Assembly: GCA_029262115.1 (NCBI GenBank)
Contig: JAJCZZ010000024.1
Span: forward strand, 1 to 64,000
Length of the DNA: 64,000 nt
Direction of reading: 5' to 3'
Source: Gemmatimonadota bacterium
GTDB lineage: Bacteria; Gemmatimonadota; Gemmatimonadetes; Longimicrobiales; Gaopeijiaceae
Each line of letters starts with the position of its first letter. Within the stretch, counting starts at the first letter, position 1. Positions 9,728 to 35,676 of the stretch are shown here, piece by piece. The position numbers were made by a program, and so were the translations under genes. Below the pieces are notes generated by a model. That model was given only the letters and a program-made list of their open reading frames with translations. It made no database searches and was not told the origin of the DNA.

Positions 9728-9764
9728 GACGGCGGGGTAGGTCCAGGACACCTACCCCGCCGTC
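9728..9764 (+). terminator. Hairpin after hbd
   Basis: A near-perfect stem, GACGGCGGGGTAGGT / ACCTACCCCGCCGTC, with a 7-base loop begins 4 bp after the hbd stop. There is no T tract, so it may be a Rho-assisted terminator or a transcript-end stabiliser. It is followed directly by repeat element copy B. Confidence 0.65.
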
Positions 9765-9776
9765 GGTCGGATAGTT

Positions 9777-10024
9777 GGTGTGGTGTTACGAAAGTGTCTC
9801 GGCCATTCGAGACGACCACGCTTCGCGCGGTGCCCGCATCCGGCCCTGGGTCGTTGCTTCTCGACCCACGCCTTTGGCGCGGGTACCCCATAGCGGTGCT
9901 ATTCCTCGGGGGTACCCGAGTCCGCAGGACTTGGGTCGCGCCTACCGGGGGGCACCCGGGTCCGCAAGACCTGGGTCGCGCCTCAGCCCTCTCGGTGGCT
10001 CGCGAACTTTCGAAACACCACACC
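9777..10024. repeat. Dispersed hairpin element, copy B (complete)
   Basis: This is the complete reference copy. The termini are a 19-bp inverted repeat with one mismatch: GGTGTGGTGTTACGAAAGT at the left and the complement of GGTGTGGTGTTTCGAAAGT at the right. Internal hairpins are TGGGTCG...CGACCCA (9847-9868), GGGTACCCC...GGGGTACCC with an inner ATAGC/GCTAT, and two tandem 39-bp units (9908-9946, 9947-9985), each carrying an ACCCGxGTCC/GGACxTGGGT hairpin. Copy C matches it with few substitutions over the left half. No conserved reading frame with its own ribosome binding site is apparent. It fills most of the 368-bp gap between hbd and the AraC-type gene. Confidence 0.9.
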
Positions 10025-10092
10025 GGGCCTGGCGCGGTGCGGCCCTCTCGTTACACATTTTTGGACGGGCCTCACCCCCTCCTGGCAGTCAC

Positions 10093-10851
10093 ATGATTCT
10101 CGCGAATATCTCCGATGGCCCCCTGAGGGAGGCGCTGTTGCAGGCAGCGCACCCGGAAGAGGAGGTCATGTGGGAGCCCGAGTTGATTCTCGAGGCCCTC
10201 GCCATGGGATACCCGCGGCTACTCGTGGAGACCGGGGACGACCGACCCTCTCTGTCGCATTTAACCGACATTCCCGTGGTCACAATTCGTGTTGGGCGGC
10301 ATGCGGCTCGTCAATCGGTGGCCCCTGCGCGCCTCAGCGTTCGGCAGGTACGCGTGATGATCGAGCAGCGCGCCGAGTCGGTATCGTGGGTCGACAAGGT
10401 CCTGGCAGACCTTGGACGTGCCGCCGGAGCGCGGCTCCCTCCGGCGCTCCGTACGTTCTCACGGAGGATTCTCGAGTTCCCGTCGCACTACGACGACCTC
10501 TACCCGGTAGCGGTGCGATGCGGGACGACGCGCGGTGCATTGAAGGCTCGGTTTCGGCGTCGCGGTGTGCCGTCCCCTTACGCCTATGTGAGATGGCTAC
10601 GGATGTTGGCTTGCGCGCATGTGCTGGCCGACGACTGGGTGACCGTTGCTCAGGCGGCTTATCGCCTCGGGTTTACGTCCGACGGGAATCTGTGCCGGAC
10701 GATGCAGGGCCTGACGGGCCTCTCACCGACCGAGGTTCGCACTCCTCAGGGGAGGAACCGTCTGCTCCTGGGTTTTGCCTGGCAGCACTTGACGCCCGAA
10801 GCCCTGGCTGGCTGGCGTGAACTCGACGACCTCTTCGTCCAGACGGCCTGA
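10093..10851 (+). CDS. AraC-family transcriptional regulator
   Basis: The C-terminal part of this 252-residue protein (about 125-225) is an AraC-type double helix-turn-helix. The first helix pair covers LYPVAVRCGTTRGALKARFR, and the second has VAQAAYRLGFTSDGNLCR followed by GLSPTEVR, the family signature. The N-terminal 110 residues (ISDGPLREALLQAAH...) are not a recognisable arabinose-binding cupin and may be a degenerate receiver-like domain. The ATG at 10093 is chosen because longer starts run through the repeat element. Targets are unknown. It is convergent with rpsU. Confidence 0.85.
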   Translation: MILANISDGPLREALLQAAHPEEEVMWEPELILEALAMGYPRLLVETGDDRPSLSHLTDIPVVTIRVGRHAARQSVAPARLSVRQVRVMIEQRAESVSWVDKVLADLGRAAGARLPPALRTFSRRILEFPSHYDDLYPVAVRCGTTRGALKARFRRRGVPSPYAYVRWLRMLACAHVLADDWVTVAQAAYRLGFTSDGNLCRTMQGLTGLSPTEVRTPQGRNRLLLGFAWQHLTPEALAGWRELDDLFVQTA

Positions 10852-33884: not shown

Positions 33885-33911
33885 GGAAGCCGTGCATGGT
33901 CGAGGCTTGCT

Positions 33912-34119
33912 AAGTGTGGGGTTACGAAAGTGTCTCGGCCATTCGAGAGGACCACGCTTCGCGCGGTGCCCGCATCCGGCCCTGGGTCGTTGCTCCTCGA
34001 CCCACGCCTTCGGCGCGGGTACCCCAGAGCGCTGCTATTCCTCGGGGGTACCCGGGTCCGCAGGACCTGGGTCGCGCCTCGACCCTCTCGGTGGCTCGCG
34101 AACTTTCGCAACACCACTT
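33912..34119. repeat. Dispersed hairpin element, copy C
   Basis: This copy lies between convergent genes and ends at the stop codon of rng. Its termini are AAGTGTGGGGTTACGAAAGT and the complement of AAGTGGTGTTGCGAAAGT. The left half matches copy B with a handful of substitutions and no indel, mostly in loops. It has only one 39-bp-type unit (about 34044-34080), in the G-C form of the stem, where copies A and B have two. Confidence 0.9.
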
Positions 34120-35676
34120 CTAGATCGAGACGTACTTGTCGGTCACGTCCGTTTCGGCCGGTCCGGACAGAAGGCGGAACTCGTCCTGCCGCATCAACGG
34201 GTCGTCGCGCATCTCCAGCCCCAGATTCGTCCGCTTGCGGAGGCGCTTGAGGAAATCCGGCTCCTCTTCGATGACCTGGAGCGCCACCTCGGGGTGGACC
34301 CGGATGATCAGGCTCTTCTCGGCCTTTCCTCCGGCGACCCGGCGGAGCGACCGCTCGATGCGCCGCACGACAGTCGCGGGAGTGTAGACCCGGCCCGCTC
34401 CGCCGCACGATCCGCACTCCTCCGTGAGGGACTGGAACAGGGACGGACGGACACGCTGCCGAGTCATCTCCAGGAGACCCAGGCTCGACACTTCAGAAGC
34501 CTTCGTGCGCGCCCGGTCCCGCCCCAGGTGGCTACGAAGCTCGTGCAGAACCTTGTCTCGGTTGGCCTGTGACTCCATGTCGATGAAGTCGACGACGATG
34601 ATACCGCCGATGTCACGCAGCCTGAGCTGCTTCGCGATTTCGCGCGCAGCGTCCAGATTCGTCCGGAGGATCGTCTCTTCGGGGTCCTTTTTCCCCTTCC
34701 CCGTGAACCGGCCGGTGTTCACGTCGATGGACACGAGGGCCTCCGTCGGCTCAATCACCACGTGACCGCCCGACTTGAGTACGACCTTGGGCTTGAACGC
34801 CTGCTGGATCTCCTCGTCGACATCGTGTTTGTCGAAGAGAGGAACGTCCCCGGCATGAAAGTGGACCCGGTCCATCAGAGACGGATCGACGCTCTCGACG
34901 TACGCCTTCACCTCGTCGTACACCGCCCGATTGTCGATCCGGAGCGCATCGAACTTGTCGCTGAACAGGTCGCGAATGACGCCGCTGATCAGCTTGGCCT
35001 CGCGTTGGATCAACGCGGGCGCCCGCGCTCCTTTCCGCTTATCGTCGATCTTCTTCCACGCCTCGTGGAGACGGTCGAACTCGCCCTTCAGGCGCTCTTT
35101 GGTGACCTCTTCGCTGACAGTGCGCACGATGATGCCGCCGGAATTTTTGGGCAGCATCTCCTTGGCCATCCTCCGGAGCCGACTCCGCTGCTCGCGGCCC
35201 TCGATCTTCCGGCTGATGCCTACGTGCGACGAATCGGGCATGTACACGAGGAAACGGCCGGCCAACGAGATCTGCGCCGTGAGCCGGGGGCCCTTGGTGC
35301 TGATCGGCTCCTTCGTAACCTGGACCAGGACCTCCTGACCCTTGCGGATGTGCTCCTGGATCGGCGGGTACTTCTTCGAACGCCGCCCCCGCCCCCCACC
35401 GTTGCCATTGTCGTCGTCGTCGAGGTCCTCCTCGTCGAAGTTCACATCCGACACATGAAGGAAGCCCGCCTTGTCGGTACCGATGTCGACAAAGGCCGCC
35501 TGGATGCCGGGGAGGACCGCCTCCACCCGACCGAGATAGATGTCTCCGACCAGACGATTCTGGTCCGGACGGTCGAGCATCAGCTCCACCAACTGATCGT
35601 CTTCCATGAGCGCGACCCACGACTCCTGGGGCGTGGCGCTCACGAGGATTTCCCTCTTCAACTTGTTGTTCTCCAA
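34120..35676 (-). CDS. rng: Ribonuclease G/E family endoribonuclease
   Basis: RNase G/E cleaves single-stranded RNA in 16S maturation and mRNA decay. The 518-residue product has an S1 domain interrupted by an acidic/basic insert (LVGDIYLGRVEAVLPGIQAAFVDIG, then DEEDLDDDD and RGRRSKK). It also has the RNase-H-like region, the catalytic SIDVNTGRFTGKGKKDPEETI and GGIIVVDFIDMES with metal-binding Asp residues, and the Zn-link CGSCGGAGRV. It starts at TTG (35676), or at a TTG five codons in; no strong ribosome binding site is visible. A long hairpin lies in the leader at 35708-35771. Confidence 0.93.
   Translation of the reverse strand: MENNKLKREILVSATPQESWVALMEDDQLVELMLDRPDQNRLVGDIYLGRVEAVLPGIQAAFVDIGTDKAGFLHVSDVNFDEEDLDDDDNGNGGGRGRRSKKYPPIQEHIRKGQEVLVQVTKEPISTKGPRLTAQISLAGRFLVYMPDSSHVGISRKIEGREQRSRLRRMAKEMLPKNSGGIIVRTVSEEVTKERLKGEFDRLHEAWKKIDDKRKGARAPALIQREAKLISGVIRDLFSDKFDALRIDNRAVYDEVKAYVESVDPSLMDRVHFHAGDVPLFDKHDVDEEIQQAFKPKVVLKSGGHVVIEPTEALVSIDVNTGRFTGKGKKDPEETILRTNLDAAREIAKQLRLRDIGGIIVVDFIDMESQANRDKVLHELRSHLGRDRARTKASEVSSLGLLEMTRQRVRPSLFQSLTEECGSCGGAGRVYTPATVVRRIERSLRRVAGGKAEKSLIIRVHPEVALQVIEEEPDFLKRLRKRTNLGLEMRDDPLMRQDEFRLLSGPAETDVTDKYVSI

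Follow-up and report, generated by a model that had tools for sequence, protein, structure and literature searches.

What kind of element is it that stands three times in the 64-kb window (the whole stretch of DNA analysed here), dense with hairpins and closed by the same inverted ends? The preliminary description had likened it to a MITE and had also considered a structured element. The first likeness was upheld by a duplicated target with matching empty sites, ends like those of IS630, a high copy number and relatives throughout the class, and the second by strong covariation and a G.U signature on one strand. The explanation that we favour is therefore composite: the element is probably a non-autonomous IS630-type (Tc1/mariner) transposon, i.e., a MITE, with a hairpin selected on one strand and with further hairpins docked inside it.

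Copies, ends and target site

The three window copies and their common terminal inverted repeats (TIRs) proved to be real, and their boundaries were refined to 1-152 (copy A), 9778-10023 (copy B) and 33913-34120 (copy C), all on the plus strand, with exact ends GTGTGG...CCACAC and TA on either side. Copy A is 5'-truncated by the contig start, and its right end (...CCACAC) is followed by TA at 153-154 and by G155. It was recovered as 4-152 by the search of its own genome and as 1-154 on the minus strand by covariance model R2, the latter being a weak match (E 0.03). Copy B measures 246 bp, with the left TIR (GTGTGGTGTTACGAAAGT) at 9778-9795 on the plus strand and the right TIR (GTGTGGTGTTTCGAAAGT on the minus strand) at 10006-10023. 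Its flanking TA has decayed to TG (9776-9777) and CG (10024-10025), and is intact in copies A and C. Copy C measures 208 bp, its TA duplication lying at 33911-33912 and 34121-34122 within C...G. The single orientation described for all copies holds for these three, which were also matched by the covariance model on one strand (minus of the window), but both orientations occur genome-wide. Two further features were observed next to copy B. An open frame on the plus strand (9775-10851, TTG start at 9775) spans all of this copy and runs into the downstream gene; it is probably a product of chance in GC-rich DNA and could be an N-terminal extension of that gene. A GC-rich, terminator-like hairpin (CGGCGGGGTAGGT...ACCTACCCCGCCG) lies at 9732-9766, between the stop of the 3HCDH gene and copy B.

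The search of the own genome (G000) yielded 71 BLAST pieces, corresponding to about 40 loci by manual count. Complete copies span 165-251 bp between two TA dinucleotides, and remnants of 49 bp were also present; the differences in length come from the presence or absence of hairpin modules. In its ground form the element has 163-167 bp, ends TAGTG...CACTA and TIRs of about 20 bp, and its simplest complete representative in the own genome is 165 bp (TAGTGTGGTGTTACGAAAGT...ACTTTCGYAACACCACACTA). The element is thus short and multi-copy, has terminal inverted repeats and lacks a transposase gene, as a MITE does. Two truncated copies of the own genome, L025 (at about 1626) and L029 (at about 1578), were seen to break at CTAG-like points; the sequence beyond opens in both cases with letters resembling (A)AGGCTGATCSGAAACCC, which may be the end of a different repeat. 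A further MITE-like repeat, longer than this one, was also encountered, in G020 (L145-L148), G004 (L079 and L083) and the own genome (L141, C101:19700-20800); its core is related (CGTCGTTGGAGC...TAGC...GCTA...GTCGTCGC), it contains REP-like hairpins at several places, and some of its copies end differently (AGAAGGCTGTTGAAGAAGTA).

In complete copies the left flank is usually C and the right flank usually G (C/TA...TA/G), from which it was deduced that the target is CTAG and that TA is duplicated. The flanking C and G were kept in most of 20 more distant copies as well. This deduction is matched by empty sites at the one locus covered by the empty-site test, where a copy in G025 sits on the stop codon of groEL (C terminus ...GGGDMGGMY*; gene named by eye from the sequence). 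In the sister species G071, G086 and G089, the alignment runs straight across a single CTAG.

According to the title of Tenzen & Ohtsubo 1991 (cited in PMC2170065), the target of IS630 is the TA of 5'-CTAG-3', and an in vitro IS630/Tc1-mariner transposition reaction is the subject of PMC2170065. The element shares with IS630 the TA target in CTAG, the TA duplication and similar ends; it differs in having no transposase gene and an interior that is, as far as seen, unrelated to the IS. In the own genome, a single IS630-type transposase gene was found, with DDE_3 and helix-turn-helix domains. The ends of this IS630 are CTAGTGTTGTGCTGCCAAAGT / CTAGTGTTGTGCTGCAAAAGT, and its TIR (GTGTTGTGCTGCCAAAGT) is identical to that of the MITE (GTGTGGTGTTACGAAAGT) at 14 of 18 positions from the first G. 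The corresponding figure for G030 is 16/18 (IS630-type TIR GTGTCCCGTCCCAGAGAT, MITE of the same genome GTGTCCCGTCCCGGAAGT), and a weaker likeness between IS630 ends and MITE ends was observed in G020 and G025. Transposases of this type would mobilise the MITE in trans, by cut-and-paste. Against the MITE/IS630 reading as a whole, the ends of the own IS630 are only 14/18 like the MITE, and a search for DDE_3 in 20 genomes was without a match in 13. An autonomous element with ends identical to the MITE, the partner that the preliminary description had envisaged, was not found in the own genome; the nearest to it is the IS630 already described.

The CTAG target is about 11-fold under-represented in the window (18 observed, 202 expected from base composition). 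By gene calls from a home-made codon score, which make these counts approximate, the 41 reconstructed insertion sites comprise 21 TAG stops of predicted genes, 19 intergenic sites and 1 gene body, and the 128 background CTAGs comprise 21 TAG stops, 60 intergenic sites and 47 gene bodies. Stop codons are therefore over-represented relative to all other sites (21/41 versus 21/128, p 2e-5) and, with gene bodies excluded, relative to intergenic sites (p 0.005), while gene bodies are under-represented (1/41 versus 47/128, p 5e-6). The first base of the element is G, so that TA+G restores the stop codon TAG and leaves the protein unchanged. The stop is restored in either orientation because the ends of the element are symmetric; the orientation relative to flanking genes showed a weak, non-significant bias (22:13 at stop codons; 26:16). 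The window holds such a case in rng (RNase E/G family; PF10150, E 3e-100), an ORF on the minus strand at 34120-35676 whose 3' end is copy C. The position of this copy against the rng stop had been described correctly, but it is not mere abutment, as the stop codon TAG (34122-34120, minus strand) is composed of the TA target and the last base of copy C.

Pairing and the selected strand

Folded end to end, the element forms a single long hairpin. Compensatory changes were found in 38 of 52 pairs among 28 genomes (alignment A3) and, for the opposite strand of 40 elements, in 45 of 52 pairs, with 95.4% of the cells paired. The covariation score was 0.520, compared with 0.165 for shuffled data and 0.07-0.11 for slid partners, and was reached in 0 of 500 shuffles. 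The terminal repeats co-vary too, e.g., ACCTCGTTGC...GCAACGAGGT and ACTTGGTTGG...CCAACCAAGT, and conserved wobble and mismatch columns persist in the hairpin alignment. Copy B was far more stable than its shuffled versions (z -6.95 and -5.60 on the two strands), and the apical stem of its long hairpin (ATAGCGGTGCTAT, 9890-9902, plus strand) is among the best-conserved segments class-wide.

The two strands are not equivalent in this fold. The consensus gave -92 kcal/mol on the strand opposite to that of the first alignment, i.e., the minus strand of the window copies, versus -57 kcal/mol on the other, and 48 of 48 elements were more stable there. If only the pairing of double-stranded DNA mattered, G.T and A.C, as complements of one another, would be expected at the same frequency. 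Among changes from Watson-Crick pairs, as counted on a parsimony tree of this short element, 88 led to G.U and 18 to A.C. The same excess was obtained tree-free from 24 disjoint pairs (97:18), and it was present in the terminal repeats (41:8) as in the interior (47:10). It was also independent of the transcription of neighbouring genes, the G.U:A.C counts being 48:6 where neighbours transcribe this strand, 36:3 where they transcribe the other and 42:8 where they transcribe neither.

Several other causes of this signature were considered. A mutational C>U bias was rejected because the unpaired sites run the opposite way, G>A exceeding C>U there, without a bias that matches the signature. Unequal constraint on the two arms was rejected as the G.U excess is present on both arms of the hairpin. 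That the signature arose because the structure had been picked on the strand it favours was likewise rejected, since with pairs predicted on the plus strand, a choice biased against the result, the ratios were still 42:11 and 27:6. Selection on a 3'-UTR in situ as the sole cause is weakened by the equal G.U:A.C ratios whichever strand the neighbours transcribe, or neither; a pure 3'-UTR role is also disfavoured by the weak, non-significant orientation bias. It was concluded that purifying selection maintains the pairing, and that it does so on one strand only. From the independence of neighbours, and from the effect on both ends and interior, it was further deduced that the constraint is the element lineage's own, on a single strand and with the ends included.

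The simplest account of the selected strand, judged from sequence, would be that it is carried as RNA, with ssDNA as the alternative. The RNA (or ssDNA) hairpin would most simply be a folded, compact 3'-UTR, which would make insertions tolerable or would stabilise or insulate transcripts, and would act in the manner of the ERIC, RUP or Correia transcripts (PMC10969869, PMC3049150). At the rng stop, transcription of the gene would read the structured strand of copy C. The strand symmetry of cut-and-paste transposition in itself leaves the one-strand signature unexplained.

Room for an RNA that is needed by the element itself is left because the signature is independent of the orientation of neighbours. 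In this alternative, which we regard as possible but unlikely, a structured RNA of the element, made from its own promoter or by co-transcription, would be needed for spread, for instance by binding a transposase or an RNase or as the mobile intermediate, and the DNA-level MITE features would serve the landing step only. In its full form, put forward with equal reserve, the element would be a TA-inserting MITE with a strand-specific RNA whose pairing, ends included, is required for propagation by way of an RNA (or ssDNA) step, and would hold docking sites for a transposase-less hairpin repeat that swaps for 4-6 nt. The alternative of an RNA needed by the element is favoured by the tolerance of G.U on one strand in terminal repeats and interior alike, by its independence of neighbour transcription and by the length of 163-167 bp, which is maintained across the class. 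It is also favoured by the conservation of the core across families. Among 48 elements, the mean column identity was 86-89% in the centre (positions 61-107) and 72% in the terminal repeats (positions 5-20), which is the reverse of what would be expected if the ends alone mattered. However, an RNA or ssDNA step is not known in IS630/Tc1-mariner transposition, and host-level selection on transcripts could also give covariation.

A pure DNA palindrome, present as a cruciform or as folded-back strands and without a role for RNA, was also considered. Palindromes are homogenised by template switching, which could keep the pairing, and the palindromic ends do co-vary within each copy. The strand symmetry of such a process nevertheless predicts G.T = A.C, at odds with the 88:18 seen without a matching bias at unpaired sites, and the conserved wobble and mismatch columns do persist. 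This explanation is contradicted by these results and was judged improbable.

Hairpins docked inside the element

The preliminary description had noted a TGGGTCG/CGACCCA hairpin, GGGTACCCC and a "39-bp tandem hairpin". These sequences are present, and in copy B they were resolved as four REP-like hairpins at 9814-9835 (GACCACGCTTCGCGCGGTGCCC, plus strand), 9863-9888 (GACCCACGCCTTTGGCGCGGGTACCC, plus strand), 9910-9937 (GACCCAAGTCCTGCGGACTCGGGTACCC on the minus strand) and 9950-9977 (GACCCAGGTCTTGCGGACCCGGGTGCCC on the minus strand). Comparison of the own-genome copies revealed four fixed docking sites, each of which is either empty (4-6 nt) or replaced by a hairpin of 22-30 nt. With the empty form in brackets, the sites read GAGAG[CCGATG]CATCCG (site 1, thus 6 nt), TGCTCCTC[CTCGAA]ATAGC (site 2), TTCCTC[GTCG]TCGCGCC (site 3) and CCAG[GATCCG]GCGCC (site 4). 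All four are filled in copy B, and copy C has hairpins at sites 1-3 (33950-33971, 33999-34024 and 34046-34073). The occupancy states seen were 0000, 0001, 0101, 1101 and 1111, together with a copy in which site 1 is filled and sites 3 and 4 are empty. Elements of G020 have sites 2 and 4 filled, as compared with an empty 163-bp copy of the same genome. Near the apex, GACC-type hairpins were found in G104 and G118, and other hairpin types in G103 and G007.

The hairpin consensus is GACC(C)A-stem-loop-stem-C(G)GGTNCCC. A conserved A.C step (G.U on the other strand) was present in 26 of 37 own-genome hairpins and in 44 of 54 in relatives. The pattern was matched 56 times in the own genome, mostly inside the MITE, versus 1 match for the reversed control, and 19 times versus 0 in G020. 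As repeated, imperfect palindromes of 20-40 nt with a conserved imperfection, the hairpins agree with the definition of a REP. Hairpins of the GACC type also lay in further repeats, in Pirellulales repeats and in disrupted genes for IS91-like transposases (identified by eye); among the matches listed from a pattern scan, there were real arrays in Gemmatimonadetes and Pirellulales, and chance matches in GC-rich actinomycetes. In the IS91-like genes of different species (L151, L189 and L075), the hairpins stand at equivalent places and mostly break the frame, the one at L189:1744 seeming to be in-frame. In the Pirellulales MAG SJ322 (L156, L179 and L202), a GACCACGC-type hairpin is nested in an apparent hairpin of the same type (GACCAAC...GGTCGGTGCCC).

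The known REPs (GTAG and CGTC superfamilies) are likewise short hairpins of 20-40 nt, some of which lie within long palindromes (A. variabilis, H. neapolitanus and T. roseum; PMC3733652), so the arrangement of hairpins in a palindrome is known in kind. The hairpins described here differ in starting with GACC and ending with GGTNCCC. The GTAG and CGTC tags, as defined in PMC3733652, are absent from them, and a Y1_Tnp (RAYT) gene was found neither in the own genome nor in 8 of the 9 relatives searched. The hairpins would constitute a second, separately mobile repeat for which the MITE serves as a landing pad; the existence of empty MITEs allows filled and empty docking sites to be compared. That the whole is instead a REP/BIME-type repeat moved by RAYT (a Y1 tyrosine transposase) was considered very improbable. 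The internal hairpins are indeed REP-like in size and in their A.C/G.U step and do occur outside the MITE, but the missing Y1_Tnp gene and tags, together with the TA duplications and IS630-like ends of the whole element, speak against it, and a RAYT/IS200 origin of the whole element was rejected.

Distribution and relation to known repeats

Two covariance models were built, R1 from 11 copies (alignment A1) and later R2. Within the GTDB family of the own genome, R1 detected the element in 80 of 121 genomes, representing 30 of 40 genera. In a class-wide sample 63 of 198 genomes had it, with families f2-f6 among them, and R2 added families f7 and f10, which brings the total to at least eight GTDB families, all in one class. 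Among the matches listed from a phylum-wide sample, every one fell in the same class. No match was found among the 4227 families of Rfam, even at E<=1, or by blastn in plasmid and phage collections, and searches of the literature for a MITE or REP described from Gemmatimonad genomes were likewise without result.

With about 40 loci in the own genome and homologues class-wide, neither a lack of copies in relatives nor a segmental duplication without conserved ends, which would have spoken against the preliminary description, was encountered. About a third of the own-genome copies are found at contig ends, at breaks in the assembly, but pieces of a recent segmental duplication or assembly artefacts are refuted, and hardly conceivable, since the copies end sharply between flanks that are unrelated, empty sites exist, and other assemblies contain many homologues of full length.

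The closest known systems resemble the element in part. Like ERIC/IRU of Enterobacteriaceae and Vibrionaceae, whose insertion 3' of a gene can alter transcript levels (PMC10969869), it is a small intergenic MITE found in many genera of one lineage. It differs in its CTAG and stop-codon sites, in the measured one-strand constraint and in the REP-like cassettes docked inside, and the likeness is one of function only. RUP of Streptococcus pneumoniae is, similarly, a short MITE, IS630-Spn1 having been proposed as its mover; in RUP and BOX the terminal repeats pair with each other, as they do here, and BOX is built of modules, of which boxB may be missing or repeated (PMC3049150). RUP is, however, AT-rich, both families are confined to one genus and close relatives, and the modules of BOX are not REP-like hairpins that replace a few bases. 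The Correia (NEMIS) elements of Neisseria are also mobile inverted-repeat units, with transcripts that RNase III cuts at their TIRs (PMC10969869); they belong to another phylum and are likened here by description, not by sequence.

Judged by Rfam, by the collections of plasmids and phages and by the literature searched, this repeat family was previously unnamed. It occupies a class of Gemmatimonadota known mostly through metagenomes, and it also breaks the assemblies of these genomes. Filled and empty copies side by side offer a way to trace the insertion of REP-like hairpins for which no transposase is known. For the element itself, the TA+G junction makes landing on stop codons self-repairing, and the one-strand signature makes it a case in which selection on the RNA-like fold of a mobile element is measurable apart from its DNA ends.
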